Positions 18,398 to 40,597 are shown, counted from the first letter of the stretch. The stretch: 46,045 nt of DNA from Candidatus Uhrbacteria bacterium GW2011_GWE2_46_68 (GCA_001002765.1 LCMS01000006.1:1-46045), one strand, 5' to 3'. The notes: generated by a model from the letters alone, not told the origin. Numbers and translations are program-made.

Positions 18398-19405
18398 TTA
18401 GGTTGTGGTAAAAATACTGCGCTTATACGCTTCCAAATTTTCGAGTGCGATCCCTGTACCTTTGACTACGCATTGCTGCGGATCCTCGGCAACAAAAGTC
18501 GGTACACCAGTTGCCTCGGCAATCAAAATATCCAAACTGCGCAACATGGCAGAACCTCCGGAAAGCATGATACCTTTGTCCATGACATCGGCGGAAAGCT
18601 CGGGAGGTGTTTTGTGAAGCACCTCTTTCACGGTCGTGACAATCCCTTCCAATTCATTTTGAATGGCGTCGGTCACATCATCGGAAGTCACTTGAATGAT
18701 TTTAGGAAGACCGGAAATCATATCGCGCCCCTTCACTTCGGTGAATAATTTATCCGGCAAATACATGGCCGCGCCAATATTGATTTTAATATCCTCGGCT
18801 GTGCGCTCTCCAATCGCAAGCCCGTATTTACGACGAATATACTCCATGATCGCTTGATCAAATTTTACTCCACCGATGCGCACCGATTCGGAAGCAACGA
18901 TTCCTCCCAAAGAAATCACGGCCATCTCGGATGTCCCTCCGCCAATATCAATAATCATGTGGCCCGAAGGAGAACCGATGGGAATGTTGGCACCGATTGC
19001 CGCCACAATCGGTTCTTTGATCACATAGGCAGCCTTGGCTCCGGCGGCCATGGTGGCATCGATAACTGCACGACGTTCAGTTGAGGTAATGCCACCGGGT
19101 ACGGCAACCATCACCTCGGGACGCAAGAGGCGAAAATTGCCGAGCGCTTTGTTGATAAAGTATCGAAGCATGGCTTCGGTTGTGCGATAATCCGCAATCA
19201 CTCCATCTTTCAGCGGCCGCCGCGCCACAATAGTGTCGGGTGTACGACCTAACATATCTTTTGCTTCTTTTCCCACGGCCAACACTTTTTTATCCAATCG
19301 CGAAACAGCCACAACACTTGGTTCGTGGATAATGATGCCGCGCTTTGGGACATAGACAAGCACGGTGGTCGTTCCAAGATCAATGCCGATTTTTTTGAGA
19401 AACAT
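18398..19405 (-). CDS. mreB: Rod shape-determining protein MreB (paralog 1)
   Basis: IGIDLGTTTVLVYV, MIIDIGGGTSEMAVISLGGIV, GIMLSGGSAMLRSLD. Confidence 0.93.
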   Translation of the reverse strand: MFLKKIGIDLGTTTVLVYVPKRGIIIHEPSVVAVSRLDKKVLAVGKEAKDMLGRTPDTIVARRPLKDGVIADYRTTEAMLRYFINKALGNFRLLRPEVMVAVPGGITSTERRAVIDATMAAGAKAAYVIKEPIVAAIGANIPIGSPSGHMIIDIGGGTSEMAVISLGGIVASESVRIGGVKFDQAIMEYIRRKYGLAIGERTAEDIKINIGAAMYLPDKLFTEVKGRDMISGLPKIIQVTSDDVTDAIQNELEGIVTTVKEVLHKTPPELSADVMDKGIMLSGGSAMLRSLDILIAEATGVPTFVAEDPQQCVVKGTGIALENLEAYKRSIFTTT

Positions 19406-19586
19406 ATAGTCATCACATTATGAAACGGAACTTTAGACGCCGCAAGGATGGATGGGATGCGCCGTCTTGGAGCACAGAAAAACCACAGATGTATCCTAGA
19501 TACATTGAGGATTTTTCTGTGCGAAGGACAAGCAGACCGCCATCGTTGCGGATGGATAAATTCTGTTTCATGATGCGATGACTATA
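19405..19586. repeat. Near-palindromic ~182-bp interspersed element, copy 1
   Basis: TIR TATAGTCATC...GATGACTATA; inner hairpin GCACAGAAAAACC..ATGTATC-CTA-GATACAT..GGATTTTTCTGTGC; second copy at 40415-40597. Confidence 0.85.
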
Positions 19587-19627
19587 GGTGAACCTCCTTT
19601 ACGTCTCGTATCTTACCTGTCTGTCTC

Positions 19628-21636
19628 CTAATCGAAAAGCACTTCAAAAATTTTGTCTTGATCAAGAATTGTGTTCAATAGATAGGTCTCATTGCCCCAC
19701 TCTAAACGCTCTTCGGAGGGTGTGGCATAAAAAATCGTGTTTCCAAAATCCAATGCAAGGTGAAGGTTGTGATCGCTTGCACCCATTTGTTTGAAAAACG
19801 TCAGTGTATAAGAACCGTTTTCGATCGCTTCGACAACCCCATCAGATAACAAATATTCAAAAACTAAGGTTTGAGTTTCTCCGGGTTCCACCGAAGTAAA
19901 CGCACCAAAGTAGGTAAGCCCAAGATCGGTTCCCACATCAACCACTCCTTCCGATTGAGAAGGATTAAGCAAACGATCATTGACAAGAGACCCCTTGGTA
20001 TCAATAAGCTTCGTTCCAAACGGAACATACAGTCGTGTATAAGTACGGTAACGCGTCGTCTTCCAATCAAAAGAACCCCGGTGAGCATAGATAATGGTCG
20101 TACGACCAATCCAATCCCCTTTGGTATTTTGAAACACTTCGTAAGTCATATCACGATCAACGGCAGGATCAGACTTAAGACTGGCCAAATTGGCGTCAAC
20201 CACCATTTGAGTATCAACGGAAGAGGAAAGAACACGCCCGGCCCATCCGGCTTGAAGCAGGGCTTCTTCCACTTCTTGATCAGCACTGTAAAAAGCCAAT
20301 TGTTTTTGCGAAAAATTTGCGGAAACAATATCAAGGAGCGCGGGCCAATCACTGGCGGGAAGTTCGTACAATCGGTACAAAAGCGACTCAACTACATCAG
20401 CCAAAATCTCTTTGCGTTGAGAGGAAGGGATCCCCTGTCCTGTATATCCCACCTCGACTTGATATTCCATGGCGTCCGCAAAATTTTCGGCCGTAAATGT
20501 CTGACCCGAAACAGTGAGAGGACCGGTCAAAACTAAAATGTCTGAGACAAAAGTAGTGGTCAACCCAATGACTCCATGCACACTCATCGCGGTTGGCACG
20601 GACATTTTTTGCTCCTCGGACAATGATTGTCCCTCGGCAATAAAACGTTCAATAATGTGCAAGGCACTTACGGCAAAATCGGGCGACCAGTTGGCGTCGC
20701 GCATGTACCAAAAAGGAGTGGCATTGTAAGTTTGCAAAGGTATGGGAGCGGCTAGGGATGAAACCGCAAGTTGATCAAGGGCATACACATCTTTTGTTTG
20801 CACCGAGACAAAATCTCCATCCTGCACACGCGCAAGACCATAAGTGCCGATAAATCCTCCTCCCGGACGCAACTCGGTATTATTCAAAAACAAAAGAAGA
20901 AATGTTTTTTGTTCTTCAAGCCCTCCAAATTCGGGAAGAATCGTCGCAAATGTTTGAAGGTTGTGAAGGGATTGGGACGCCTCGTCCAATTGATCGAGGA
21001 GAGTAAGAAACGTGGAAAGAGAGGAAACAAGCCAGAGAGCGCTTCCCCACTGTTGCATTTCCTCGCGCACAATGGAGAGTTGAGCCGATGCCTGAGCAAA
21101 ATCAGAAGACGCCTCACTCAAACGCATAAGCACAGCTCGTTTGGTCTCTCTTGGCACTTCGGCAAATGTGCCTTCAACCTGTGTGGTACTAAGATCAGCT
21201 GACAGTCCGGAAAGTCGCACCATATCTTCCCCCACCCCACAAAGATTTTGAAGAGCTTCAAGCAAATATCCTCCGGCCTCCAAGGTATGTGCAAGACCGG
21301 TCACTTGATCTCCTATCCAAGGGAAGGGAGCCAAAAATCCAAAAAAATCTACCGCATGTTCGGCACGAACCGTTGTCTTTTGTATGGCGTCCAACGCGTC
21401 GGACGCGGCAACAAAATCCCAAACAGCCACGGCTTCTTTTGCGTGCTTCGCTTCTTGCATGATGCTCTGCGTTGTCGCAAATGCCCATCCGGCAAATCCT
21501 ACGCAAGCACAAAGGACGACGAGAAAAAAACTTGCACAAACAACCACGATCATTCGCTTGCGCTTATCGTGTCGTTGACGACGTCTGACAAAAGACGGTT
21601 CTATTTTTTCTAAAAAATTGTAGGAATGCGTCACAC
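19628..21636 (-). CDS. DUF4012 domain-containing membrane protein
   Basis: N-terminal TM, 'LLLFLNNTELRPGGGFIGTYGLARVQDGD' typical of DUF4012; GTG start at 21636 directly follows the upstream stop. Confidence 0.88.
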
Positions 21637-22452
21637 TTAGGAAACGGGTGTGGGAGGCTTCCTCCCATGTTTCCGATAATAGTATAGCGCACTTTGGAGT
21701 TGGATGGAGGTTAGTGGATGAAACAGCTGCTTCAAAAAATTTCCTTCGGCCGTTTCTCGACGATAATAATGAATCATCTGTGCGGCAGGGTGATACACCA
21801 CACGTTTTCCCGCTTGCCAACAACGGCGACACAAATCTTGCTCCTCAAAGTACATAAAAAAAGCCGGATCAAAACCACCCAAGGTTTTCATGAACGACCG
21901 TCTAAGACACATACTGGCTCCAAGCACATAATCCACATCACGCGTCTCTGTGTGATTCCACTCCTCCATCAAATAGGCACGAACCTCACGCCGAGCCCAA
22001 GGCAAGGAACGCAGCAGAGGAAGTCGACGATAAAAAATCACCTGCGGAGTGGCAAAACGAAAACAACTCATCTGAATACTTCCGTCGGGGTGTCGCAATT
22101 GCGGAGCGACAATCCCCACGTCAGGATGCTCTTTGAGGTACTGCACCAAAGTTTCCAATGATCCGGGAAGTACCATGGCGTCCGGATTAAAAATAAGAAA
22201 GTGATCTCCTGTTGCTTGTGCCATCGCTTGATTCATTCCATTACCAAATCCGATATTTTTTTCCTGCACAAGAAGACGGACCGCGGGGAATTCTTTTGCC
22301 ACCCACGGGGCGACACGCCTCTGCGGATTGTTATCAACAACGATCACTTCATACGAAATCTTCGGGGCTGCACGAAAAATCCCTTTGAGGGTTTGTCTCA
22401 AAAGTCCTGGCGTATTGTAGTGCACAATAAGAAGAGACAGTTCGGGAGACAT
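21637..22452 (-). CDS. Glycosyltransferase family 2
   Basis: 'LSLLIVHYNTPGLLRQTLKGI', 'VDNNPQ', 'FLIFNPDAMV', 'VLGASMCLRRS'. Confidence 0.92.
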   Translation of the reverse strand: MSPELSLLIVHYNTPGLLRQTLKGIFRAAPKISYEVIVVDNNPQRRVAPWVAKEFPAVRLLVQEKNIGFGNGMNQAMAQATGDHFLIFNPDAMVLPGSLETLVQYLKEHPDVGIVAPQLRHPDGSIQMSCFRFATPQVIFYRRLPLLRSLPWARREVRAYLMEEWNHTETRDVDYVLGASMCLRRSFMKTLGGFDPAFFMYFEEQDLCRRCWQAGKRVVYHPAAQMIHYYRRETAEGNFLKQLFHPLTSIQLQSALYYYRKHGRKPPTPVS

Positions 22453-22459
22453 AGGGCAT

Positions 22460-23515
22460 TTAGCAAAACCATTTGAGCAAAGCGCGACGAGGAACCCGAC
22501 GTGACCGTTGGATCAGACGACGTTTGCGCCACAGGCGCGGAAAAATAATCCATGGATCAATAAACGCTTTCATGTAGCGCGGTTCAAACAAAAGCACATA
22601 AAAAAATCGAGTAAACTCTCGTGCGATCACCCAAGGACTCATCGCAAAAAATTCCAACCACCCCAAATTTTTTACTAAAAGAAAACCGTGATTACGTAAA
22701 GACCAATAGCGACGAATGCGAGATTGTCCTCGACGCTGTTGCCATCGCTTCCACCACAAAAGTTTCTCTTTGCTGTACATACCACGATGATGATAAGCCA
22801 CGGCTCCTGGAACAAATCGAGCGCCCCACCCCATCCGCTGGAGACGCCAGGACAGATCGATGTCTTCTTTGTATGAAAAAAAATCCGCATCAAAAAATTC
22901 TTGCGCATATCGGATGTCCGCAAGCGCTTGCGCACGATACATGGCAATGGCTCCGGAGATGCCAAATACATCTTGTGAGTCGCGGTATTGTCCTTGATTG
23001 ATCTCCCCGGCTCCTCGATCCCAAAAAAAACATCCACGGGAAGCGCAAAGACCGGTTGAATCTATCACATCGGAGAGGATGGTTTCTTTCCATCCTTCTT
23101 CTCCTGCGGGTTCACGAAAAGCCCGTAAAAGTGTTCCTCCCCACATTCCCACGGTTGGATGCGTCTGTGTGTCACGCAAAAGTTCTTCCACAAATGTGGG
23201 AGAAAAAATAGTGTCTTGATTCACGATAAGAATAAAACAAGAGGACAAATCTTTTTCTTGCCAATGTTCAATCGCATAACGGATGCCTTGATTGTGGGCC
23301 GCTGCAAAACCGAGATTCTTTGGATTGCGTAAAAAAACCGCCTGAGGCATTTGTGCGCGCACAAAATCCTCTATCCCATCACTGGAACCGTTATCAATAA
23401 TGAACAAACGGAAATCTTGTACGGTTTGTGTGCGTAAGGACTTGCACAATTCCGGAAAGACATCCATGCCATTCCATGTCACAACATGAAGAGAAATCGA
23501 AGGGGTGTGGGACAT
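22460..23515 (-). CDS. Glycosyltransferase family 2
   Basis: 'LHVVTWNGMDVFPELCKSLRTQTVQDFRLFIIDNGSSDG', 'ILIVNQDTIF', 'YKEDIDLSWRLQRMGW'. Confidence 0.92.
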   Translation of the reverse strand: MSHTPSISLHVVTWNGMDVFPELCKSLRTQTVQDFRLFIIDNGSSDGIEDFVRAQMPQAVFLRNPKNLGFAAAHNQGIRYAIEHWQEKDLSSCFILIVNQDTIFSPTFVEELLRDTQTHPTVGMWGGTLLRAFREPAGEEGWKETILSDVIDSTGLCASRGCFFWDRGAGEINQGQYRDSQDVFGISGAIAMYRAQALADIRYAQEFFDADFFSYKEDIDLSWRLQRMGWGARFVPGAVAYHHRGMYSKEKLLWWKRWQQRRGQSRIRRYWSLRNHGFLLVKNLGWLEFFAMSPWVIAREFTRFFYVLLFEPRYMKAFIDPWIIFPRLWRKRRLIQRSRRVPRRALLKWFC

Positions 23516-23516
23516 A

Positions 23517-25004
23517 TCAACGTTTTTTTCGTGTCACTTGAAACCCGAGATATTTTCCAAACATAAACCTTGTCTGTGCATCGATCGCGGGAAAAGCACC
23601 GAAAATAATAAAAGTCACGGGGAGTAATGCCCATTGCAATAACATGAACGGCCACTGTGTCCAATGTGTTTGTTGCGGCCGTCTCGGAAGAAGGACAAGG
23701 GAAAGCAAAGCTGAAACAAAAAGACCCACCATGGCTCCTTGCATAAGCATCTCAAGGGTGTACGGCGCGGCTTGCACTAAGGCAGCGGTTTGCCCTTCTG
23801 CGGTCTGAAGCGGTAACCACCCCAATAAAAAAATCAAAAGGGGAGCCGTGGCCCAGGTGTACATCCCTTCCAGATGATTAAAAAGATATTTGAGGCGTTT
23901 GCGCAAAGGAATGGTGTGATCTTTTTGAAACGCTTCCACGATAAAAGGAAGATGCTCCACTCCCCAAGCCCAACGACGTTGCTGTATATAGAGGGCTTTA
24001 AGCGCCTGCCAATAATTATCCCCGACAACCGTATCCATGGACACGGGTAAAAATAAAGGTGTCACTCGATAATCTCCATGATAATGCACGAAAGCTTGCA
24101 TGAAAATACGAGAGTCTTCGCTCACAATATCTTTTTGCCAAAATCCCACATCTTTAAGCATGGTCCAAGGCATGGAATGAGAAGAAAATGTCCATAACCG
24201 TTCGGGGCGCACAAGCTCACTCATAAGCCAAAATGTGGTGCCAAATGCGGCAATGCGCACAGGCGCGGGCGCATGCCAGATATTGTTGGCGAGCAAGGTA
24301 ATCGGTTGATAAGAAGAATGTGTGGGGTTTGGTACGGTACAGTACAAATACGTAAGATAGGAAAAATATTGTTTATGAGCGATCGTGTCCACATCAAATG
24401 CTGTCACAATCACATCTTCATCACGCAGATCGGGGAAACGTTTGGAAAGCTCTTTGGCAATTTGTGATCCTGACCAATGTAGATTGGAACCTTTCCCCGG
24501 AATTTCTCCTGGAAGATCTTTAGGGTGGATCGTGGAAAAGATAGCGCCAAATACTCCGTCAAATTCCCGCTCCAATGTGCGGACATTTTCTTCGAAATGG
24601 GCACGATCACGTTCTTCCCCCGCAAGCACAATAAAACAATGGATGGATGGATACTGATTTTGGGCAAGTGATCGAAGCGTGGCGCGTAAAATCTCCACTC
24701 CTTCTTTATAGGTAGGAAGAAAAATAAGATGACGAATGGAAGCGGCTCTTGGTAGAGAAGAAAGGCGCGCGCCCCAATCAATCTGTGAAGTACGTCGGAC
24801 TTCCACCCAAGCCGCCAAAATATGAATCACATAATAGATGACTCGGTAGAGCCACAGCACGTCAAACAAAATAATCAGTACAATGGCCCAAAGAGGAGCA
24901 AGAAAAGAAAGGATGATTGCAAGACCAAACGTTCCCCAAATCAAAAGACCGGGGATCACCTCCCACCCGCGCATCTTTCCGTAATGATACGTAAGCTCGG
25001 GCAT
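23517..25004 (-). CDS. Membrane glycosyltransferase family 2
   Basis: Multiple TM segments; 'VIVTAFDVDTIAHKQYFSYLTYLY', 'QQRRWAWGVEHLPF' resembles the QxxRW motif. Confidence 0.88.
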   Translation of the reverse strand: MPELTYHYGKMRGWEVIPGLLIWGTFGLAIILSFLAPLWAIVLIILFDVLWLYRVIYYVIHILAAWVEVRRTSQIDWGARLSSLPRAASIRHLIFLPTYKEGVEILRATLRSLAQNQYPSIHCFIVLAGEERDRAHFEENVRTLEREFDGVFGAIFSTIHPKDLPGEIPGKGSNLHWSGSQIAKELSKRFPDLRDEDVIVTAFDVDTIAHKQYFSYLTYLYCTVPNPTHSSYQPITLLANNIWHAPAPVRIAAFGTTFWLMSELVRPERLWTFSSHSMPWTMLKDVGFWQKDIVSEDSRIFMQAFVHYHGDYRVTPLFLPVSMDTVVGDNYWQALKALYIQQRRWAWGVEHLPFIVEAFQKDHTIPLRKRLKYLFNHLEGMYTWATAPLLIFLLGWLPLQTAEGQTAALVQAAPYTLEMLMQGAMVGLFVSALLSLVLLPRRPQQTHWTQWPFMLLQWALLPVTFIIFGAFPAIDAQTRFMFGKYLGFQVTRKKR

Positions 25005-25009
25005 GAAGA

Positions 25010-25690
25010 TTAACGATCAGAAGAAATGTCTTTACGCAAACGATCCAGAACGCGCGAAGCATGTTCTTTTCCTCCCAGTCCAAATGCCAGTCCGCCGGAG
25101 AGTGCCAGCATAGCCACGAGGCCTGTAAAAAGGACGCGGATGAGATCAGGGGCAATTTGTAATTGCACGAGCGCGGCCATAAATGTAAAAATCAAAATGG
25201 CCCACTTGGCCGTGCCCGAAAGAAAATCAGCGGATTCCAATTGTGCGGCGGCCACGGCGGATTTCACCACGCGCTTCACAAAATTTGCGAGCAAAATACC
25301 GGCCAACAAAATGATCACAGAGATCATGACGTTTGGAAGATACCGTACAACTTCTTGCAAATATCCGGTGACCTGATCCCATCCCAAAATATCCGTAGTC
25401 GCGATCAAGGTGACAATAATGCAAAACCATTTCACGATCCACGCAAGCAAACGACCGATATGAAGATGAATACCGATTTTTTCAAAAAACGCCTTGATCT
25501 CAAAATGAGCGGCGAGTTGATCAATTCCGAGCACTTGAACCACCTGGCGAATCACCTTGCTTAAGACAAGCGCCAACAACATGCCTACCAAAAAAACAAC
25601 CACGGCTCCAAGAATCTGTGGAAGATACGCAATCAAGCTTTCCCAAAGCTCCAAAAAAGGTTCTTGAAACATAAGGGGTGAAAAGGTCAT
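25010..25690 (-). CDS. MscS-type conserved TM-helix membrane protein
   Basis: Repeated TM-helix pattern 'LPQILGAVVVFLVGMLLALVLSKVIRQVV' / 'LPNVMISVIILLAGILLANFVKRVV'. Confidence 0.8.
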   Translation of the reverse strand: MTFSPLMFQEPFLELWESLIAYLPQILGAVVVFLVGMLLALVLSKVIRQVVQVLGIDQLAAHFEIKAFFEKIGIHLHIGRLLAWIVKWFCIIVTLIATTDILGWDQVTGYLQEVVRYLPNVMISVIILLAGILLANFVKRVVKSAVAAAQLESADFLSGTAKWAILIFTFMAALVQLQIAPDLIRVLFTGLVAMLALSGGLAFGLGGKEHASRVLDRLRKDISSDR

Positions 25691-25699
25691 AGAAAAAAA

Positions 25700-26092
25700 T
25701 TAAGAATAAGAAAAAGTGATATGAGGTTTTTGTGTATAGGTTGGCATGGCAACGATGCGTGCTGGTTCTACAAGCGCTCGCGTCCATATCTGAATGAGGG
25801 ACTCTTGTGGATCTGCGCTTAAGGCTACCAGGGGGAGATGATGAACATACGCAAAGGTGTTGGCAATCGTGACACTCATGCGACTGGCTGTACAAGACCC
25901 CGGCCCTGTTACAACGATCATCTTGCTTATATGTGCTTGAGAGATATGCCATTGCTCCAATGCTTGTGTGATACAAAGTAATAGCTGTTCGGGAGAAAGT
26001 TCCTCACGTTTTTGCTGGAGGAGAAAGTTGTTTTGTCCTAAACCGATTTCAAAAAAATGAATGTCTTGTGCGCGAATCAATAAAGTAAACAT
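25700..26092 (-). CDS. tsaB: TsaB-like protein (short)
   Basis: 'MIVVTGPGSCTASRMSVTIANTFAYVHHLPLVALSA' matches the TsaB VGxGPGSFTGLR...A region; no C-terminal half. Confidence 0.7.
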   Translation of the reverse strand: MFTLLIRAQDIHFFEIGLGQNNFLLQQKREELSPEQLLLCITQALEQWHISQAHISKMIVVTGPGSCTASRMSVTIANTFAYVHHLPLVALSADPQESLIQIWTRALVEPARIVAMPTYTQKPHITFSYS

Positions 26093-26094
26093 AC

Positions 26095-26703
26095 CTAGGA
26101 GAGACGGTTGATCATAATGATCTTCTCTGCATCCAGAATAGAAGAAAGGAAACGATCCGTCACCTGACGACGATACACAAATTCCTCCTTGGGCATCAAG
26201 GTAAAATTGATCTCATGACCCATTTCTTTTTCAAATTCGCCAATCATTTTTTCCACGGCTTTTTGTTTGATGTCCCCAACGATCAATAAATCGGTACGTA
26301 CATCGGCGAGATTGAGAAACCGCCCGGTGAACGCCAAAAAATCAATCTTCCCTTTTGCATCCATCTCTTGAACAAAATTGTTCTTCAAGAGAACTTGAAT
26401 TTTTTGAAACAGCGCACGCAAATCTTCAAACAGCAAAGAAGAGGTTTCGGCTTGATAATATTTTTTCTTTTCGGAAAGGGCGAGAGTGCGTCCGGGAATT
26501 TGCTTTGCTTTTTTTTCACAGACGATCCCTAAATCCATAAGATTTTGAAGTTCACGACGAACTGAATTGAGTTGAGCATCCACCTTACGCGTCATCTCGC
26601 GCACAAAAAAAGCCTCCTGTGAATATTGAAGAAATAAAGCCAGGAGACGTGCACGCGTCTTTGAACCAAACAACTGTTCAAGTTTGAAATTCTGTTTCGC
26701 CAT
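26095..26703 (-). CDS. HTH transcriptional regulator / MNT-like protein typical of CPR
   Basis: 'MAKQNFKLEQLFGSKTRARLLALFLQYSQEAFFVREMTRKVDAQLNSVRRELQNLMDLGIV' winged-helix; start chosen at 26703. Confidence 0.78.
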   Translation of the reverse strand: MAKQNFKLEQLFGSKTRARLLALFLQYSQEAFFVREMTRKVDAQLNSVRRELQNLMDLGIVCEKKAKQIPGRTLALSEKKKYYQAETSSLLFEDLRALFQKIQVLLKNNFVQEMDAKGKIDFLAFTGRFLNLADVRTDLLIVGDIKQKAVEKMIGEFEKEMGHEINFTLMPKEEFVYRRQVTDRFLSSILDAEKIIMINRLS

Positions 26704-26761
26704 AGATCTTCTCTGAAAAAACCTTGTATTCATGAATGAAAAACCCTGTTCTTATCTCCCA

Positions 26762-26789
26762 TTGCTCCTGTGTTTTTCTTAGGTATAAT
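26762..26789 (+). promoter_or_regulatory. Promoter upstream of 26818 CDS
   Basis: TTGCTC-16 nt-TATAAT. Confidence 0.5.
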
Positions 26790-26817
26790 GTACACAACCT
26801 CCTCTAAACGAGCAACT

Positions 26818-29001
26818 ATGTCTATTCTCCTTAAAGCCGACATTCTTCAAGAAGAACGTCTCTCCCCTACGCACCGTAGTTTTTGTTTTTTTGCTCCTCT
26901 GGCGTTACGTCAAGGGTATGTATTCTTCTTGGCACAGGTGGAAAAAAACATGGAACAAAGTGAACTCTTTTTTGAGACGGTGCAAGAACATTTGGAACGC
27001 TTGGCGGGATCATTTGGAAAAGAAACGAATGCCCAACATCGCTTTGAACAATTTTTGAGCGCGCTCAATGAAACCTGTGCCTCTCGCGTACGAGAAAATG
27101 TATGGGCATTTCCCATTCATCGACTTTCCGCGGTTGTGGGCATGGCCTCCGGAAATGTGATGTATCTTTCCGGAACCGGGGACCCCACGGCTTTGTTCCT
27201 TCACAAAAAACCATCCTCACAATATCAAGTCTACGATCTCTCTCGTAACATCCGCACAGAACAAGCTCTTCCTACATGGGAAAAAGTTTTTGCCGTTGTG
27301 TTGGATGGGGAGTTGCACCCGGGAGATGCGTTTTGTTTATCCAACCAAGATCTTCGACGCGCCATGAAAGCCGATGATCTTCACACCATTCTTGCCACAC
27401 TCCCTCCCACAGGAGCCATCGAGGCTATTCGCCAACATTTTCCTCTTGAAGCTCCTTTGTGCCTTTTTATTTTGCAAGCTACAGAAACGGATCTTTTCGG
27501 ATCACGTTCTCCTTCAGCCAAACCTCGTTCTGAACTTTCCCTTCAACAATTAGGACACACACGCAAGCAAACCGATGCCTATCTGCAAGATCAAACACCT
27601 CATACTGTCTCCTATCTCTGGCGTCTTTTCCGTCAATGGCTCTTTCCTTCCAAAACAAAATTTTCTCAACAGCTCACGCGTTTTGATCCTTTCATTCGTT
27701 TTCTTTGGCGCCTACTCCTGTGCATACTTCGCGTAGGTATTCGTATGACTATTGGATGCCCTAAAGATTTTGCTCGACACAGTTACCGACTCACAAAAAA
27801 AGATATACGTGCTTCCACCTGGCGCTCCTTACGCGAACAAAGCTTTGATCAATGGTTTCGTGTAAAACGTCTCTTCCACCGTCTTCCGCACACAACAAAA
27901 TATCTTGTCTTGGCTATAGTGCTCACCTGTCTTGCGTTTGGTATGGGTATTGTGTGGAGACAACACACTCAAGCTTTGTCTGAAGCTGAAATGACTTATC
28001 TTTCTCAAGTCTCCTCGATCCAAGCCATTCTTGATCGCGCAGAAAGCGCTCTTATTTATAAAGATGAGGAACAAGCGAGAGCCCTTTACACACAAGCGAC
28101 CGAAGCTTTGTCAGCTCTTCCTATTGAAACCGTGGAAGAGCAACAAGCCCGTGCGCGCCTTCAAGAACAAGTGCAAAGCGGCATGGATACTTTGCATCAT
28201 ATTGTCTATGTTCCGGATCCGCCCATTTTAGGCGATCTTTCCTCCTTGGAGGGCGCACCGGAAGCCTTATCCCTCCTTCTTTCCGGAGACGCAGTAACCG
28301 TACTTGGCTCTGATCATAAATGGTATAACCTTCAAAAAACACAAAAAACTTTTACGGTCATCCATCAAGGAACACCGTCTGAAATATCTTCTCCTGTGGC
28401 AACCATGATCGGGACCACTCTTGCTTTTCTTGATACGCGACCGGGCATAACTTTGATTACCGAGGACATGGCAACAGCATCTTCTCTTACTTTTTCTGAA
28501 GATCAAACTGTACGCGCGATTCATGGATATGGAGATCGTCTGTACCTCCTTGTCAAAGAAAAAGGAGACGCTGTCATTCTTCGATCTTCTGCAAGTGGTG
28601 ACGGTGTGAGCACCCCTTCTTCTTGGATAAAAACAAAAACGACCAATTTGGGAATGGCTGTGGATTTTGCCATCGATGGCACCGTGTATGTACTCCTTCA
28701 AGACGGATCCATCGTTCAGTTTGTGGGCGGTAATGAAGCCGCGTGGCATCTGGGAACCGTGGAACCCATCGTCCAAAACGCCCAAGCGATTTGGACGGAC
28801 ATTGATAGCTCATACCTCTATATCCTTGAACCTTCTCAAAAACGTCTATTGATTTTTGAAAAAGAAACCGGAGCTTTTGTCGTACAATATGTCTCTGATC
28901 TCCTCTTGGAATCCACAGCTTTTTCTGTTTCCGAAGATACACGCAGTATTTACTTCCTTTCCGGATCGCGTGTGTATACCATGGCCGCAAGCCATCTCTA
29001 A
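26818..29001 (+). CDS. Hypothetical protein: PP2C-like N-terminal region, TM helix, extracytoplasmic propeller-like C-terminus
   Basis: Long plus-strand ORF; TM 'YLVLAIVLTCLAFGMGIVW'; C-terminal repeat-like strands. The 26770 start would sit in the -10 box. Confidence 0.75.
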   Translation: MSILLKADILQEERLSPTHRSFCFFAPLALRQGYVFFLAQVEKNMEQSELFFETVQEHLERLAGSFGKETNAQHRFEQFLSALNETCASRVRENVWAFPIHRLSAVVGMASGNVMYLSGTGDPTALFLHKKPSSQYQVYDLSRNIRTEQALPTWEKVFAVVLDGELHPGDAFCLSNQDLRRAMKADDLHTILATLPPTGAIEAIRQHFPLEAPLCLFILQATETDLFGSRSPSAKPRSELSLQQLGHTRKQTDAYLQDQTPHTVSYLWRLFRQWLFPSKTKFSQQLTRFDPFIRFLWRLLLCILRVGIRMTIGCPKDFARHSYRLTKKDIRASTWRSLREQSFDQWFRVKRLFHRLPHTTKYLVLAIVLTCLAFGMGIVWRQHTQALSEAEMTYLSQVSSIQAILDRAESALIYKDEEQARALYTQATEALSALPIETVEEQQARARLQEQVQSGMDTLHHIVYVPDPPILGDLSSLEGAPEALSLLLSGDAVTVLGSDHKWYNLQKTQKTFTVIHQGTPSEISSPVATMIGTTLAFLDTRPGITLITEDMATASSLTFSEDQTVRAIHGYGDRLYLLVKEKGDAVILRSSASGDGVSTPSSWIKTKTTNLGMAVDFAIDGTVYVLLQDGSIVQFVGGNEAAWHLGTVEPIVQNAQAIWTDIDSSYLYILEPSQKRLLIFEKETGAFVVQYVSDLLLESTAFSVSEDTRSIYFLSGSRVYTMAASHL

Positions 29002-30000: not shown

Positions 30001-30077
30001 AGAACGACCTTTTTTATCCCCCCTTTACTCCGCTTAAACGGGGTTTGGAGGATCTTTATACTTATTTTTTAAAGAAA

Positions 30078-30195: not shown

Positions 30196-30252
30196 TTAGA
30201 ATACTCAAAACAAAGAAAATCGTCAACTTAAAAAATGTCGGTGTCAATCGTC

Positions 30253-30804: not shown

Positions 30805-30916
30805 AAAAATGATGATGTATTATTATACATGTTGTTGATGAAATATCGAAAAAAAGCTAGGGTGATCTTGGTTGTTTTTCGACCAAAACCGTTCCTTTCA
30901 CCACACGAGGTATCCC

Positions 30917-32113: not shown

Positions 32114-32299
32114 TCTCCTCAAGGACGATCATTTGATCGTTACCCCTGTGAGCAGTTCGTTCAAACGGGATGATAAACACGCGCGCTTCCAAACAATGAA
32201 GGAAGCGCTTTTTTATTTGTGAGGTCAAGTCTGGCTTCTGACTTTTTTGGAAAGTCCGATGCCTCTAGCAAAGCCGGACAAGCAGGCACGACTTCCAAA

Positions 32300-34255
32300 T
32301 CAACGATGTGCAAACCACCAAGAAAAAATATCACGCGCAATAGGGGTAGCGACTAATGATCCTTCTCCTCCCTCCTCAATCATCACCACCACGGCAATCT
32401 CTGCATCACTGTAGGGACCAAATCCAATAAACCATGCATGGGTCGGACGATCTCCCGGGGTCTGTGCAGTCCCCGTTTTTCCGGCAACCGGATAAACCAA
32501 GGAACTCAAGAGACGCGCGCTTCCACTTGTCACAGCTTGTCGCATCCCTTCCTTAACCACCCGCAGTGCAGTCATGTCCAAATCCTCAATCGGTTCGGAG
32601 GAAAAAAAGAATGTTTCTTCACCTCCACCCCCAAAGACAGCCGACTCCACAAGATGTGGAATGACACGATTCCCCCCATTGGCAATTGTACAAACGGCAG
32701 ACGCCATCTGAAGCGGTGTCACCAACAAGTCCCCCTGGCCAATTGCCAAATGATATGTATCCCCCACATACCAACGTTCTCCTTTTTCCTCTTCTTTCCA
32801 TGCTTTGGAAGGTAAAAATCCATCTGCTTCTCCACTTAAATCAATCCCTGTGGGAAATCCGAATCCGAAACGCGCTGCATAATCGGTAATTTTTTCCACT
32901 CCAAGCCCCGTAAACGTATCGTATCCTCCTCCGATAATATAAAAATATGTGTTCACTGACTCGGCGATGGCTTTGCGCACATCAGTAACTCCATGACCTC
33001 CTGCCTTCCAATCAGGAAAAAACCACTCGGAAATACTCAATCCTCCTGTGGAAAGGAAACTGGTATGTTCGTTGACAAGTCCCTCAGCCAGAGCCGCATA
33101 CGCGACAAAAGGCTTAAACGTAGAACCTGATGGAAACTCACCGGAAACGGCACGAGGGAAAAGTGGTTGATCCAAATCTTGTGCCAGCACCTCATATTGT
33201 TCAGTTGTAATGCCGCTTGCAAACAAATTGCTGTTATAAGCGGGAAGGCTTACGAGCGCCCGCACGGCCCCACTGGTAGAATCCATCACGATTGCTGAAG
33301 CACGTGAAGCCCCAATCTCCGAAAGTGTCTGTTGAAGGGTTTGTTCGATAAATGCCTGAAGAGCGGAATCGATAGAGATCGTCAAAGAAGCGCCGGCCAC
33401 AGGATCTTGTTTTGAGAGAATCAAAAGTTCATGACCTCGTGCATCCACTTCCACAGAATATTCTCCGGGTACTCCGCGCAGGAGTGATTCGGCGCTTTGC
33501 TCCACTCCGGTTTTACCCACCTCATCGATAATCTGATACCCCTGATGAGTCAAGGAAACAAACTCATCTTCACTGATTTTCCCCATATACCCGAGCACAT
33601 GAGAGAGGGAAGAAAAAGAAGAAGGATACGAGCGCATGGAAGAAATATGCAATTCAAACCCTGACAAAGAAGCAAGATCAATCGCCAACCGCATCGCTGT
33701 CTCATAGGGAATATGTGAACGTACAGAAACGGGATCAAAGGGCGTCCTGGCATAGGTGGTTAATAACAGATCAATATCCGCTCGATGGACACCGATAAGC
33801 GAAGTGGCTTTCATAAGGACTTCTTCACGCAAAGTGAGATCTGCCGGAATATCTGCCAAGGTCATAATCACCTCAAAATCCGGTACATTTTCCACAAGGA
33901 GAACTCCCTTGTGATCATAGATGACCCCCCGAGGAGGAACGAGCACATGAGTGCGCACGCGATTCCCTTCTGCCAAAGAGCGATAAGATTCTCCTTCTAT
34001 AATTTGGAGATAAGCGGTTTTCCCAATAAGAAGGAGAAAAAAACAAAGACCAATAATGCCCGCTACATTCCAGCGCCTGTGTGAAATGGATGCTCCGACA
34101 AAAACACCTTGTGACATGTTTGAAAAATGATTTTCCGGATCACGAGAAACCGTGTCGACTTCTGTGGTTGTATACGAAAGCATCCCAAGTGTTCCCTCTT
34201 GGATGGGAAATAGTTCGGGAGATGAGCGGGAAGAAGAACGTCTAAACCAACGCAT
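32300..34255 (-). CDS. mrdA: Penicillin-binding protein 2
   Basis: 'GEFPSGSTFKPFVAYAAL' (SxxK), 'AESVNTYFY' (SxN), 'VAGKTGTAQTPG' (KTG). Confidence 0.94.
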   Translation of the reverse strand: MRWFRRSSSRSSPELFPIQEGTLGMLSYTTTEVDTVSRDPENHFSNMSQGVFVGASISHRRWNVAGIIGLCFFLLLIGKTAYLQIIEGESYRSLAEGNRVRTHVLVPPRGVIYDHKGVLLVENVPDFEVIMTLADIPADLTLREEVLMKATSLIGVHRADIDLLLTTYARTPFDPVSVRSHIPYETAMRLAIDLASLSGFELHISSMRSYPSSFSSLSHVLGYMGKISEDEFVSLTHQGYQIIDEVGKTGVEQSAESLLRGVPGEYSVEVDARGHELLILSKQDPVAGASLTISIDSALQAFIEQTLQQTLSEIGASRASAIVMDSTSGAVRALVSLPAYNSNLFASGITTEQYEVLAQDLDQPLFPRAVSGEFPSGSTFKPFVAYAALAEGLVNEHTSFLSTGGLSISEWFFPDWKAGGHGVTDVRKAIAESVNTYFYIIGGGYDTFTGLGVEKITDYAARFGFGFPTGIDLSGEADGFLPSKAWKEEEKGERWYVGDTYHLAIGQGDLLVTPLQMASAVCTIANGGNRVIPHLVESAVFGGGGEETFFFSSEPIEDLDMTALRVVKEGMRQAVTSGSARLLSSLVYPVAGKTGTAQTPGDRPTHAWFIGFGPYSDAEIAVVVMIEEGGEGSLVATPIARDIFSWWFAHR

Positions 34256-34271
34256 ACATGGCCAAGGTATC

Positions 34272-34793
34272 TTAAGAAATTTTTGGAATGAAAAAAATCA
34301 TGGCAAGAAAACGCCTAATCTGCTTGGCACTAAAAAACAAAAAGGTGATGAGGAAGAAAAAAAGAGGAATATGGACGAGAAACGCAAAAAAAATTTCTTT
34401 CCACAACACAGATTCAGGATGAAAAAACCAAACAATCCCCCAGACTCCCACACGCGCCATCCAAAGAACGCCAAAAGAAAAAAAGGCATTGGCAAGGAGC
34501 CCATAGTACGACCGATGAGAGAAAAAATATTGGGATCCAAACCAAGCGGCTGCCGTTGCCAAAAGAAGAGGTATTGTCTCGCACGGCACAAGGCCTTGAC
34601 GCAAAAAATCCAATACTAAACCATACCCGGCAATCCATCCGATTGCTTGGCGCACATGATGATGTTGCAATACATAAACGCTCACACCAAAAACACAAGG
34701 AAGGAACATCCAAGGAAAAGGAAGGGAGTGTAGAAAAGCAAGTTCAAAAACGACCAAAAAAAACCAAAGACCTATTCCAAAAAACCACTTCAT
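34272..34793 (-). CDS. mreD: MreD-like membrane protein
   Basis: Multi-TM protein between mreC and PBP2 gene; ATGA overlap with the mreC stop. Confidence 0.65.
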   Translation of the reverse strand: MKWFFGIGLWFFLVVFELAFLHSLPFPWMFLPCVFGVSVYVLQHHHVRQAIGWIAGYGLVLDFLRQGLVPCETIPLLLATAAAWFGSQYFFSHRSYYGLLANAFFSFGVLWMARVGVWGIVWFFHPESVLWKEIFFAFLVHIPLFFFLITFLFFSAKQIRRFLAMIFFIPKIS

Positions 34794-35593
34794 ATACCCT
34801 CTTTTAAGAGCAGCACGGAAACAAAACGAATCGTACGTGCATCCACCCAAGGCTCCACAATAGCTTCTTGAAAAGGAGCAGACGTCTCCCCTTTTACCTC
34901 GGTGACAATCCCCACAAACAATCCACTGGGAACCGAGGACTCCAAACCGGACGTCACCACCATTTCCTGCGCTTCCACTTGTTCGTTTTGAGGAATGTAT
35001 CTGATCATCACCACTTGATTGCCTTCTCCCTGTGCAATACCGATCGTCTGTGTTTCGTTTAACAAACTCACAGCCGTAGCGCTGGTGGTATTGGTAAGAG
35101 GGGAAACTGTGGCGGTAGTTGGAGTCAATGCAATAATTTTTCCAATATAAACCCCCTGTCCGGTAATAACAGGAGCTCCCGTATACAGTCCATCCACACT
35201 CCCTCGATCAATGACAAAACTCGTGGAAGTAGACGCAATCGCACGACTAATCACTGACCCGGTTACATACTCATAGGGTTGGCGATCCAAAAAATTGAGC
35301 AGCTCTCTTAATTGTGTGTTTTCCTCCTCCAGTAAAAGATTTTGCGCATACCCTACGGCATAGGCATCTCGTTGTGCCTCCAAAGTTGCCAATTCTTCAG
35401 GGGTGATGATCGATGCTTTGGACCACCACTGTGTACGTTGGAAAACCCAGGTTCCAGCCTCGACAAAAAGATGCTGGATCTTTTGAGGCCAACGCATAAA
35501 AGGCCAAGGAGCAAAAAAACTTCCCACCCAAAAGAAAATAAAAAAGCCTCCCAAAATGAGTGGCAAACCGCGTCGCACTTGAGAAAAGCGCAT
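34790..35593 (-). CDS. mreC: Rod shape-determining protein MreC
   Basis: N-terminal TM, coiled coil, 'GSVDGLYTGAPVITGQGVYIGKI'. Confidence 0.92.
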   Translation of the reverse strand: MRFSQVRRGLPLILGGFFIFFWVGSFFAPWPFMRWPQKIQHLFVEAGTWVFQRTQWWSKASIITPEELATLEAQRDAYAVGYAQNLLLEEENTQLRELLNFLDRQPYEYVTGSVISRAIASTSTSFVIDRGSVDGLYTGAPVITGQGVYIGKIIALTPTTATVSPLTNTTSATAVSLLNETQTIGIAQGEGNQVVMIRYIPQNEQVEAQEMVVTSGLESSVPSGLFVGIVTEVKGETSAPFQEAIVEPWVDARTIRFVSVLLLKEGI

Positions 35594-35599
35594 AAAAGA

Positions 35600-36652
35600 T
35601 TACAAAAGATCACTTTGACGAGAGGAAGGAAGGGCAATGTCTTTGAGTAACGCTTCATTTTCGAGCAATGCTCCGGCTCCACGCACCACGGCAGTAATAG
35701 GATCGTCTGCCACACGCACGGGAATGGAAGTTTCGCGCGCAATCAAGGTATCGAGTCCGCGCAATAAAGCACCTCCGCCGGTTAAGACAATACCGCGCTC
35801 ATAAATATCCGCGACAAGCTCGGGAGGAGTCACCTCTAACGTAGCTTTTATATTTTCAAGAATTGTGGCAACAGAACGTTGCAACGCTTCGCGAATTTGT
35901 GCATCGGTCACGATCAATTCTTTGGGAAGCCCGCTTAAAAGATCTCGTCCGCGCATTTCTATCTCAAGCGGCGCTTCCGGTTCCATGGCTGTCCCTATAC
36001 GAATTTTTAATCGTTCTGCCACACGCTCACCCAAAAGAAGATTAAACGTATCACGTGTGTATTGAATAATATTTTTATTCATCTCATCTCCGGCAATATC
36101 CAATGACTTCCATGTCACCACCCCAGCGAGACTCATCACGGCAATCTCGGTTGTTCCTCCTCCAATATCCACGACCATCATACCGACAGATTCCGCAAGA
36201 GGAAGTCGTGAGCCCAGTGCCGCGAGCATAGGATTTTCCACCAAGAATACTTCGCGCGCACCTGCAGACAAAGCAGCGTCTTCGATCGCCTTTCGTTCGA
36301 CCTCGGTTGTTTCCAAAGGCACCCCCATAACAACACGTGGTCTTGGTACGATCGTGAAAGACTCTGCGTGCACTTTATCGATAAAATACTTGAGCATTTT
36401 CTCCGTGACTTCAAAATCCGCAATCACCCCCTTGGTGAGAGGTTTAATAATTTGAATATGAGGAGGAGTTTTCCCCAGCATGTCTTTTGCTTCGGTTCCA
36501 ACCGCAAGAATTTGATCATTGCGTGTATTCAAAGCCACCACAGAGGGTTCATGAATCACAATGCCATTTTCTCGCACATACACAAGTGTATGTGACGTCC
36601 CCAAATCAATTCCCAAATCTTTTGAAAAACGTCCGAACAATTTATTGAACAT
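35600..36652 (-). CDS. mreB: Rod shape-determining protein MreB (paralog 2)
   Basis: 'DLGIDLGTSHTLVYV', 'MVVDIGGGTTEIAVMSLAGVV', 'GIVLTGGGALLRGLD'; directly upstream of mreC. Confidence 0.95.
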   Translation of the reverse strand: MFNKLFGRFSKDLGIDLGTSHTLVYVRENGIVIHEPSVVALNTRNDQILAVGTEAKDMLGKTPPHIQIIKPLTKGVIADFEVTEKMLKYFIDKVHAESFTIVPRPRVVMGVPLETTEVERKAIEDAALSAGAREVFLVENPMLAALGSRLPLAESVGMMVVDIGGGTTEIAVMSLAGVVTWKSLDIAGDEMNKNIIQYTRDTFNLLLGERVAERLKIRIGTAMEPEAPLEIEMRGRDLLSGLPKELIVTDAQIREALQRSVATILENIKATLEVTPPELVADIYERGIVLTGGGALLRGLDTLIARETSIPVRVADDPITAVVRGAGALLENEALLKDIALPSSRQSDLL

Positions 36653-36724
36653 AAAAAAAGAAAGGTGTAGACCTTTCCATTCTACTCAAGGAAAAAAACA
36701 CGAGCAAGCCAAAGATGGATACAA

Positions 36725-37132
36725 TTATTGTTCATCTTTTTCCGCTTCCACAGGACGTGTCTGTTTCAAACTCAAAAAAAGAAATTCGACAAAAGAAACA
36801 AAAAGTATGAGAAGAACCATAAGCCACCAAGTCCATAATCGAAGGGAAAGCAACAAAAGAGCGACGAGGATGAGCAGGGTAAACAAAACACTGTGACGAA
36901 GGGATCGTATGACATGGCGAGAGAGAAGAACATCCTTTTGTTTCCATGCTCGTAAAAGCGTTCCCGTGATCGTTAGTGTACCTGCAAGCGCAAGAGCAAA
37001 TGTGGCATAAAAAAGAAAAAATCCTATGATCTCGGTTTTCAAAGGATTGATAAAAAAAAGAACTCCTCCCCATGTAAACCAGGCGATTAAAGTCGCGCCC
37101 CCCATCCAATAGAGAAATATACGAAAGGTCAT
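36725..37132 (-). CDS. Four-TM hypothetical membrane protein
   Basis: MTFRIFLYWMGGATLIAWFTWGGVLFFINPLKTEIIGFFLFYATFALALAGTL..., operon-like spacing. Confidence 0.7.
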   Translation of the reverse strand: MTFRIFLYWMGGATLIAWFTWGGVLFFINPLKTEIIGFFLFYATFALALAGTLTITGTLLRAWKQKDVLLSRHVIRSLRHSVLFTLLILVALLLLSLRLWTWWLMVLLILFVSFVEFLFLSLKQTRPVEAEKDEQ

Positions 37133-37473
37133 AGTGTGTCTATTGTACCATCCTGGAAACCATTTGTAGGAGGAAGATTGTGAAGAATCTGAATGCGCAC
37201 ACGACTGATGTGTGTTTGTGGCAACTCTCGCTTTAAAAAAGAAAGTAATGTTTCTTCTTGTTGTCTCACAAACTCTCCCAAGGCAGAAGAACGACATCCG
37301 ATAACCAACACGGTTCCCGTGAGCGCCAATGTTCTGGCCTCGGTTTTTGCCGCCGACGGCAATACAGAAAACAAAAACTCATCTGACTTCATGACGATCA
37401 AACTTGTAGTCACCTGCCGCGTCACATGCGCGCGATCAAGGGCGGAGGGTAAAAGATGTTTAAGTGAAAACAT
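37129..37473 (-). CDS. DUF721/DciA-like protein
   Basis: 'MFSLKHLLPSALDRAHVTRQV...ALTGTVLVIGCRSSALGEFVRQQEETLLSFLKRELP'. Confidence 0.6.
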   Translation of the reverse strand: MFSLKHLLPSALDRAHVTRQVTTSLIVMKSDEFLFSVLPSAAKTEARTLALTGTVLVIGCRSSALGEFVRQQEETLLSFLKRELPQTHISRVRIQILHNLPPTNGFQDGTIDTL

Positions 37474-37477
37474 ACTG

Positions 37478-40408
37478 TTAATCGCGCCATTCACAAATAT
37501 CCGCAAAATCACATGTCCGACAATGAAAACCGGGTTTTGCATCAAACGCTCCTCTACACAAAGCTTCCAGTCGCTCTAATAAATTTTCCTTTGCTTGTTC
37601 CAATTGTTTTTCCGTTCCCAAAAAAGTCACTCGGGAATGATCTTCAAGATAATGATACGTAAGCGCTACAGGCGTAAGTCCTAAAACTTCTTGTACAGCC
37701 ATTTGATACAAAAGCAATTGTTCTTTTTGTTCTTTGGTGATGTCTTCCTCATGTTTTGGTTTCCCTGTTTTATAATCCACGATCTCCACTCCTTCCCCTT
37801 TTGCGTCAATGCGATCGATCCGTCCTTTCAAAACATAAGCCCCCAACTTGTAAGTAAACTCTTGTTCCACAAAACAAGGATGTGGTCGCTCTTGTTCCAA
37901 AATTTTGTGATAAGTCATGAGACTTGCTCTCCCCTGTTTGCGGTACTTTTCGCGCTCTGTATCATCATGATACCAATCATCCAACCATCGTTCCTCATAG
38001 ATCTTGAGCAATTCCTCAAGACTCACCGGAAGAGATGCGGACAAGACCTCTCCACCAAACAATGTTTCTTGAGTATGTGCATTTCTCTCGATCCATAATT
38101 CAAAAAAACGACAAAGGGTTTCGTGCATGGTTCTGCCAAAAGAAGAAGAAGCTCTTCCCAAAATGGGTACACGAAGAAGGTGAGCATATTTATATTGCAA
38201 CGGACACGTTTGATAAGCGGCAAGTTGTGTATACGAAAAATGAGAAGGAAGAACAAAGGTCACGGGATTATCCTTATCTTCTGAAGCGATGAATGAGAAA
38301 AGAGAAGAACGTGGAAGAGAAGAGTGAGCAGGAGGGGTCTCATATCCCAATTCCTTCAAAAAACGCGAGAAGCGTCGTTTCCTTGCGCCGCCATAATCTT
38401 CCGCCGACGTCAAAAACAATCCTCTCTTTGCTCGTGTCATGGCCACATATAACAATCGGCGCTCCTCGGCCAAATGCCCATCTTCTCCAAGGATGACATC
38501 GCGATCCAAGGCAGTGGGAAGCGGAATGGCATCGCGCCTCGCTATGGTTGGAAAACGTTGTTCGATCAAATGCACGACAAACACATAAGAAAACTCCAAC
38601 CCCTTGGATGCATGTACGCTCATTATATGCACCACGTCAGGCCCCGCTTCGGGATCGGACGATAAACTTCCCTCTTCACCCGCTTTTAACTCTTCCCCAA
38701 ATTCCAAAAGAAAATCATGCAAAGAAAAAGAGGGGCTCCGGCCTTCAAACCCGCGAATGCGATCGTAAAATTTTTGTAAACATTGATAGGATTCTTTTTG
38801 TACAGATTCGTGTAGCAAAGAAAGTGCTTGCACATACCCGATTTCCCGTAGCGCAGTCACAAATAATTCCGAGGCTTTTTTTGTTCGCATCGCTATTTGG
38901 AATTGTCCAAGTTTTTGCATCAATGCCTCCACGGTTTCCGCCTCTCCTTGAGGAAGTGAGGAAAGCAGACGAATGCTCTGACAAATCTGAAATAAACTGA
39001 CACCGCGACGATGCGCTTCCCGACAAATCAAAGAGAGCGTCTCACAAGAAAGCGCGTGTAAAGGCCAGGATAAAAATCGATAAAAAGAAACGCTGTCGTG
39101 AGGTTGATCCATCACCCGTAAAAGGGAAAGGGCATCCACAATGACAGGCTTGCGATATAAACCGCGCAGGGCATGAAATTGATAAGGAATTTTTTCACGC
39201 TCGAGCGCCTGAATAAAAGGTAAAGCCGAATCGTTGGAACGTACGAGAATGGCAAACTCCCCAAACGAACGTTCTAAATCTTCTTTTCGCAACGAAAGGA
39301 TTTTTTCTACGACCTGTCGCGCTTCATCTTCTTCCCTCGCACAATGAATGTGTTCAATCACTCCCGGGTGTTCTTGATGCGCCACCAATTTTTTGGAAAG
39401 GGTACCGTCTTGTCTCGCCTCTAGGCGATGCGGATTATTTTGTTGAATCAAGGTATAGGCATGATCCAAAATGGCTTGAGAAGAACGATAGTTTTTAATA
39501 AGCGCAACTTTTTTCGCGTTTTGGTAATCTGTTTCAAACGCAAGAATATTGGCAAGCGAAGCCCCACGAAACTTGTAAATTGCCTGGTCATCATCTCCCA
39601 CCACAGTGAGATTATTCCTTGGAGATGCCAACAATTTTATAAGCTCATATTGCGTATGATTCGTGTCTTGAAACTCATCAACTAAAACAAAACGATATTG
39701 ATTTTGAAGATGATGAAGTACACGGGGGCGCTGACGCAAAAGCATCAAGGTGTGTAAAAGGAGATCTCCAAAATCAACACAATCTTGCTCGTGCAAGATC
39801 TGCTGATAGGTATGATAAGCCCCTGACAATTCTTCCAAACGGCTCACTTCACTTGTTGTAACGTCATCCCCGCCTGTCTTGTCCATGTTCGCTCGTTTTC
39901 CCTCGACATAGGCAAGATAATCCTCGGGAGAAACGGCATTGTCTTTGGCTCGAGAAAAATGTGTGAGCAATGCGCGAAGATACTTCGAGGGGTTTCCAAG
40001 CGGTCGATAATAATCCAACTTAAAACGATCAAATTGTTGACGCATCAAAAGCCACGTATCAAGCTCATTTAACAAACGTGTGTCAGGAGAAAGCCCCATC
40101 TCCACTCCGTGTTCGTGCAATACTTTTTCACAAAAGGAATGAAAAGTGGAAACTTGCAGATTGATATATCCATAAGGCAAGAGACGATCCACACGTTCTT
40201 CCATTTCTCCGGCCGCTTTATCGGTAAACGTAAGCGCTAAAATTTCCTCGGGTTTTGCCAAACCTTCCGTAATAAGCCAAGCAATACGGTGAGTGATCAC
40301 CATGGTTTTTCCCGTCCCAGCACCAGCCACAATCAAAAGCGGCCCTTCCCGATGAGTAACGGCTTGTTGCTGCTCTTTATTAAGAGATGAGAGTAAAGAG
40401 GAATCCAT
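37478..40408 (-). CDS. UvrD/PcrA-type helicase with C-terminal PD-(D/E)XK nuclease
   Basis: 'LNKEQQQAVTHREGPLLIVAGAGTGKTMVITHRIAWLI', 'LVDEFQDTNHTQYEL', 'VEIVDYKTGKPKHEE', Cys-rich C-terminus 'CRTCDFADIC'. Confidence 0.93.
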   Translation of the reverse strand: MDSSLLSSLNKEQQQAVTHREGPLLIVAGAGTGKTMVITHRIAWLITEGLAKPEEILALTFTDKAAGEMEERVDRLLPYGYINLQVSTFHSFCEKVLHEHGVEMGLSPDTRLLNELDTWLLMRQQFDRFKLDYYRPLGNPSKYLRALLTHFSRAKDNAVSPEDYLAYVEGKRANMDKTGGDDVTTSEVSRLEELSGAYHTYQQILHEQDCVDFGDLLLHTLMLLRQRPRVLHHLQNQYRFVLVDEFQDTNHTQYELIKLLASPRNNLTVVGDDDQAIYKFRGASLANILAFETDYQNAKKVALIKNYRSSQAILDHAYTLIQQNNPHRLEARQDGTLSKKLVAHQEHPGVIEHIHCAREEDEARQVVEKILSLRKEDLERSFGEFAILVRSNDSALPFIQALEREKIPYQFHALRGLYRKPVIVDALSLLRVMDQPHDSVSFYRFLSWPLHALSCETLSLICREAHRRGVSLFQICQSIRLLSSLPQGEAETVEALMQKLGQFQIAMRTKKASELFVTALREIGYVQALSLLHESVQKESYQCLQKFYDRIRGFEGRSPSFSLHDFLLEFGEELKAGEEGSLSSDPEAGPDVVHIMSVHASKGLEFSYVFVVHLIEQRFPTIARRDAIPLPTALDRDVILGEDGHLAEERRLLYVAMTRAKRGLFLTSAEDYGGARKRRFSRFLKELGYETPPAHSSLPRSSLFSFIASEDKDNPVTFVLPSHFSYTQLAAYQTCPLQYKYAHLLRVPILGRASSSFGRTMHETLCRFFELWIERNAHTQETLFGGEVLSASLPVSLEELLKIYEERWLDDWYHDDTEREKYRKQGRASLMTYHKILEQERPHPCFVEQEFTYKLGAYVLKGRIDRIDAKGEGVEIVDYKTGKPKHEEDITKEQKEQLLLYQMAVQEVLGLTPVALTYHYLEDHSRVTFLGTEKQLEQAKENLLERLEALCRGAFDAKPGFHCRTCDFADICEWRD

Positions 40409-40414
40409 AGGGAC

Positions 40415-40597
40415 TATAGTCATCACGTCATGAAACGGGACTTTAGACGCCGCAAGGATGGATGGGATGCGCCGTCTTGGAGCATAGAAAAACCGCAGAT
40501 GTATCTAGAGATACATTGAGGATTTTTCTGTGCGAATGACAAGCAGACCGCCATCATTGCGGATGGATAAATCCTGTTTCATGATGTGATGACTATA
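40415..40597. repeat. Near-palindromic ~183-bp interspersed element, copy 2
   Basis: About 12 differences by eye from 19405-19586; same TIRs and inner hairpin. Confidence 0.85.

Follow-up and report, generated by a model that had tools for sequence, protein, structure and literature searches.

Results

Hairpins at the mreB and helicase genes

The window, i.e., the whole analyzed stretch of 46,045 nucleotides from Candidatus Uhrbacteria bacterium GW2011_GWE2_46_68, carries two long hairpins, one at the start of mreB and one at the start of a UvrD-type helicase gene (Table 1). A reading of the window from sequence alone (below, the sequence-only reading) had described them as near-identical near-palindromes with about 12 differences and a compensatory base-pair change, abutting minus-strand gene starts, and these observations hold in full: the copies lie where they had been placed, 11 substitutions and one indel distinguish them, the pair A19429:T19562 of copy 1 becomes G40439:C40573 in copy 2, copy 1 overlaps the ATG of mreB, and copy 2 stands 6 bp before the ATG of the helicase gene (40406–40408). 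The 22-bp terminal repeats had on average 0.00 matches in 100 shuffles of the window. We denote the plus and minus strands of the window copies as strand B and strand A, respectively; thus, strand B is antisense to both genes. For strand A, the folding energy is about −82 kcal/mol in either copy (z about −10.9 relative to shuffles). An open reading frame within the element was considered and rejected, as indels occur in the loop and the reading frame differs between the copies.

Table 1. Hairpin copies, their parts, and adjacent genes in the window
Feature	Position	Strand	Remarks
mreB	18398..19405	-	PF06723 MreB_Mbl, 3e-132; ATG 19403-19405 overlaps the end of copy 1
Hairpin copy 1, 182 bp	19405..19586	+	Plus strand is strand B, the fold under selection; R2 covariance-model match 19429-19561 (+), 111.0 bits
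Copy 1, left terminal inverted repeat TATAGTCATCACATTATGAAAC	19405..19426	+	
Copy 1, conserved 5' internal motif GATGGGATGCGCCGTCTTGGAG	19451..19472	+	Family consensus GATGRGATGCGMMGNNCTGGAG
Copy 1, conserved 3' internal motif CGAAGGACAAGCAGACCGC	19522..19540	+	
Copy 1, right terminal inverted repeat TATAGTCATCGCATCATGAAAC (minus-strand reading)	19565..19586	-	
Probable mreB ribosome-binding site AAAGGAGG	19593..19600	-	Putative, from sequence inspection
UvrD-type helicase with PD-(D/E)XK nuclease domain	37478..40408	-	PF00580, 1.2e-80; PF13361; PF12705
Hairpin copy 2, 183 bp	40415..40597	+	Same orientation as copy 1; R2 covariance-model match 40439-40572 (+), 111.3 bits
Copy 2, left terminal inverted repeat	40415..40436	+	
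Copy 2, conserved 5' internal motif	40461..40482	+	
Copy 2, conserved 3' internal motif	40533..40551	+	
Copy 2, right terminal inverted repeat	40576..40597	-	

The entire 182-bp hairpin separates the probable mreB ribosome-binding site from its ATG (window positions 19403–19600), and the insertion probably cut this good site off from the start codon. In some T4 genes, a hairpin has been reported to bridge the ribosome-binding site and the start codon; similar bridging was considered here and is possible for mreB only, though it gained no further support.

A multicopy family in Patescibacteria

The genome containing the window (1.06 Mb, 30 contigs) holds eight full copies and one 78-bp internally deleted copy retaining both ends. 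The copies end in TATAG...CTATA, and in four of the nine, mreB included, the start codon of the neighboring gene overlaps the element end (GACTATATG). Copies in relatives are 182–184 bp long and have covarying stems. Scanning with a covariance model built on the central 99 nt identified the core in 28 of the 286 genomes of the class; a model of the structure derived from 57 copies was positive in 20 of the 380 genomes from the phylum, and several of these have 5–8 copies. Since some assembly contigs end inside copies (G011 C27, C45, C87; G051 C8, C12), the copy numbers of draft genomes are minimum values. Genuine matches to the core motif occur only in Patescibacteria, while motif matches outside this group and in one viral contig have neither the partner motif nor the outer stem and were dismissed as chance. 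No Rfam family (release 15) reached its gathering score, and none reached E ≤ 0.5 on 14 element loci; among the papers searched, none dealt with repeats or structured RNAs in Patescibacteria.

The core is enclosed by unrelated terminal stems, and its elements fall into two size classes of approximately 120–140 and 157–185 bp. Strand B is predicted to form a long hairpin whose internal loops are purine-rich and conserved; in the short class, this strand reads as outer stem, GATGRGATGCGMMGnnCTGGAG, stem, GAG / YGAG internal loop, apical hairpin, stem, CGAAGnnCnAGCAGATCGC, and outer stem. Deletion derivatives lose the interior and keep the ends, yet between subfamilies the core is better conserved than the arms and ends. 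Such derivatives include L014 1471–1548 (78 bp), L044 1448–1567 and L058 988–1107 (120 bp each), L054 1034–1145 (112 bp), and L037 1501–1554 (54 bp), the 120-bp form being present in two genera. In genome G222, copies L069, L095, L097, and L105 have partly missing outer arms and an intact core, and their cores are identical or nearly so.

Covariation and the strand under selection

Covariation was observed in 41 of 64 pairs of the full-length elements. In the set of 57 diverse copies, both partners have changed in a compensatory manner in 38 of the 44 pairs, a level reached in 0 of 500 shuffles, the covariation score is 0.682 as compared to 0.193 for shuffled and at most 0.152 for slid controls, and standard pairs occupy 92.7% of pair cells.

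If only double-stranded DNA mattered, G·T and A·C mismatches would be expected to be equally frequent. We aligned the arms of 111 elements without a folding model and counted isolated mismatches: read on strand B, G·U prevails over A·C, 82 vs. 32 contexts counted as unique, with related copies not fully independent (p = 3e-6). Polarized singletons yield 38 (G·U) vs. 21 (A·C), with A>G as many as C>T, and therefore cytosine deamination does not explain the bias. The B-strand alignment has 19 (G·U) vs. 6 (A·C) pair columns, and an independent set, drawn almost entirely from other classes and selected by a model itself tolerating wobble, has 30 vs. 9 (p = 0.001); the bias was non-significant in the first, narrower full-length alignment. 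As G–U is favored on strand B only, the fold of one strand is selected, either as RNA or as single-stranded DNA, the two not being separated by the bias, since G–T is more stable than A–C in DNA as well. Strand A had been considered as the RNA due to its C(UACG)G tetraloop and sense orientation to mreB, and was rejected, as the wobble counts favor strand B.

Empty sites and the TA target

The flanks of eight insertions from one genus were joined and queried in the three genomes of this genus, and for all eight at least one empty ortholog was found. In the clearest alignments, the empty site has a single TA (L032/L155, L040/L157, L059/L178) or CA (L062, L020) vs. TATAG...CTATA in the filled site, a pattern that fits TA duplication and insertion 3' of TA alike. 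The comparison with empty sites proposed in the sequence-only reading, which had asked about TA, thus returned TA (or CA) once per clearest empty site. The repeat targets TA and turns over between species; it is not a conserved leader.

Short-class copies upstream of tRNA genes in related Uhrbacteria

A tRNA gene lies within 80 nt of 16 of the 79 motif-defined elements, always 3' of strand B and in 13 cases in sense, and in 12 of the 79 a sense tRNA starts 0–6 nt past the hairpin, as compared to approximately 0.1 if placement within non-coding DNA were random; part of the set was retrieved by searches with tRNA-adjacent copies, so that these counts are inflated, while the orientation ratio next to protein-coding genes (see below) should be unaffected. 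Short-class copies with strand B in sense 0–6 nt upstream of tRNA genes are L080, L117, L118, L124, L125, L244, L282, L290, L294, L347, L348, L363, and L365, and the tRNAs behind short-class copies are of the Met, Lys, Arg, Ser, Gly, Asn, Gln, and Leu isotypes.

Some of these leader copies have a −10-like box upstream. The ortholog of one tRNA-Asn locus in a congener has no element, with a similar −10 region and the leader end retained, and hence the insertion was placed between the promoter and the tRNA. Leader similarity is 73% within one genome vs. 66% for the same isotype across genomes, which suggests spread or homogenization within genomes rather than plain inheritance.

As a general feature of the family, the tRNA-leader position was rejected: in 45 loci, nearly all of other classes, only one tRNA was found within 100 nt, and it was antisense; the pattern is therefore clade-specific. 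It was not seen for the two copies in the window. Between co-directional protein-coding genes, strand B of the short class is antisense in 17 of 19 cases according to simple ORF calls, opposite to the tRNA case.

Candidate mobilizing enzymes

A transposase with matching terminal repeats, suggested as a target of search by the sequence-only reading, was looked for and not found, nor was any longer element carrying these ends. No gene recurs next to the copies; the shared ORFs mostly corresponded to the translated element or to ordinary genes. Among 20 element-bearing genomes, DDE_3, the usual domain of TA-type transposases, is present in one and absent from the genome of the window, DDE_Tnp_1 is present in three, and reverse transcriptase domains in 17, missing in the copy-rich G051 and G222; with such distributions, IS630, DDE_Tnp_1, and reverse transcriptase were each rejected as the common partner. 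Two adjacent reverse-transcriptase fragments lie at G000:C5:67167–67771 in the genome of the window.

Y1_Tnp genes were found in 14 of the 20 genomes, with eight matches in the genome of the window and none in the copy-rich G023, G018, and G080. In the genome of the window, the RAYT-like Y1 genes L220, L222, L223, and L224 have a GGGGTCAGGTC-like sequence upstream and/or GACCTGACCCC downstream. The linkage to RAYTs was rejected, as these genes are flanked by GGGGTCAGGTC...GACCTGACCCC and not by the hairpin considered here. The replication-strand bias of the copies, considered as a test of single-stranded DNA transposition, is weak (32:17).

Discussion

Comparison with known repeats

Correia/NEMIS, ERIC, and RUP repeats are palindromic MITEs with a TA target. 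They resemble the family described here in the size of 100–200 bp, intergenic position, inverted repeats, a stable hairpin in the transcript, and frequent location of copies near gene starts (PMC10969869; PMC2229807). Judging by these descriptions, the present family is set apart by a core conserved throughout the phylum with changing ends, covariation in the majority of pairs, selection for wobble confined to one strand, and the tRNA-leader subset, and no IS630 transposase was found for it. REP/REPIN sequences with RAYT are similar in being dispersed imperfect palindromes that probably fold as single strands, and Y1/RAYT-type genes occur in most carriers of our element (PMC3116915; PMC3733652). 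In contrast to REP/REPIN, the element is longer (120–185 bp) and forms one collinear hairpin, its long class has TA at both ends, the RAYT genes are not flanked by it, and Y1 genes are found in most, not all, carriers. bcr1 of the Bacillus cereus group is a small multicopy mobile repeat reported to have a conserved transcript fold and compensatory changes; by description, it is similar in mobility, copy number, and the covarying fold, while its host is unrelated. The Rfam structured RNA families (release 15) share with the element a conserved fold, covariation, and purine-rich internal loops, but none matches its sequences.

The sequence-only reading had offered a MITE, a REPIN-like element, or a mobile structured RNA as candidates. 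The multicopy nature, TA target, empty congener sites, and covariation agree with this set, whereas a matching transposase was not found and RAYTs of the genome lack this hairpin. The conserved fold with covariation above controls, characteristic of Rfam-type RNAs, is observed, as is the TA at the site and once in the empty site, typical of IS630-type MITEs, while no autonomous IS630 element sharing the ends was found.

Alternative explanations

The earlier reading had named its own counterevidence, namely that only two copies exist and no covariation is seen; the multicopy family and strong covariation are decisively the opposite. A recent segmental duplication or an assembly artifact without a family, compatible with just two copies in the window, is hardly conceivable, as many genomes carry copies with different flanks. 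A role of the hairpin as an RNA leader regulating mreB and the helicase gene in cis, as had also been suggested, is in agreement with the start codons adjoining both copies and the likely mreB ribosome-binding site beyond the insert. However, conservation upstream of orthologs with a sense-strand fold was not found: insertion sites of the family are empty in congeners (for the mreB and helicase sites, no congener offers a comparison), and copies occur before, after, and between unrelated genes. Moreover, the strand whose fold is selected is antisense to both genes, and therefore the leader idea, which we consider highly improbable, fails. The copies at mreB and the helicase gene are best read as having survived in permissive non-coding gaps.

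An ordinary TA-specific MITE of the IS630/Tc1 type, with a DDE transposase reading double-stranded terminal repeats and the hairpin a mere by-product of long inverted repeats, would account for the 22-bp repeats, the TA target, the intergenic position, and the retention of both ends by the 120-, 112-, 78-, and 54-bp derivatives. Still, we regard it as fairly unlikely, given the single DDE_3-containing carrier, other than the genome of the window, the divergence of ends and conservation of the core between subfamilies, and covariation with a one-strand wobble bias, which it does not predict. Selection of the fold on one strand would fit a single-stranded DNA element mobilized by a Y1/HUH enzyme (RAYT or IS200/IS605-like), whereby strand B is transposed and inserted 3' of TA without true target duplication, in accordance with the TATAG...CTATA ends vs. 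one TA in empty sites, the frequent Y1_Tnp genes, and the weak replication-strand bias. At the same time, the RAYTs of the genome have their own flanking ends, three copy-rich genomes have no Y1 match, and the bias is far below that expected for strict lagging-strand insertion; we regard this explanation as unlikely.

Proposed explanation

The family is multicopy, intergenic, TA-targeting, and subject to species turnover, and tolerates G–U wobble on one strand only. The explanation we favor, with a fair though limited degree of confidence, is that the hairpins belong to a non-autonomous mobile element recognized via folded strand B (RNA or single-stranded DNA), with a short form at tRNA leaders; hence, we probably deal with an undescribed mobile element rather than a switch for two neighboring genes. 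A trans-acting enzyme would recognize folded strand B through the conserved core and place new copies at TA sites, and hence the outer arms could diverge while the core and pairing persist. With folded strand B as the recognition unit, one would understand why the core is conserved and the outer arms are free, why wobble is confined to one strand, and why the copies occupy TA sites and turn over. In related Uhrbacteria, a shorter form of this fold would have colonized tRNA-gene leaders in the sense orientation, where transcription and subsequent release by RNase P may be presumed.

More tentatively, and with rather modest expectations, one may suggest a phylum-wide mobile RNA element of Patescibacteria, whose strand B is transcribed, and the folded RNA recognized and copied; in Uhrbacteria, it would target, or survive best, before tRNA genes, with the tRNA promoter producing the RNA and RNase P freeing its 3' end. 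If true, this would be a bacterial counterpart of retroelements settling upstream of tRNA genes. Patescibacteria are tiny and for the most part uncultured; their genomes are very small and gene-dense, and repeats have been little studied in them. A phylum-wide fold of one strand, with changing ends and, in one clade, placement exactly before tRNA genes, would represent an undescribed class of structured RNAs or a new mode of movement of small elements.
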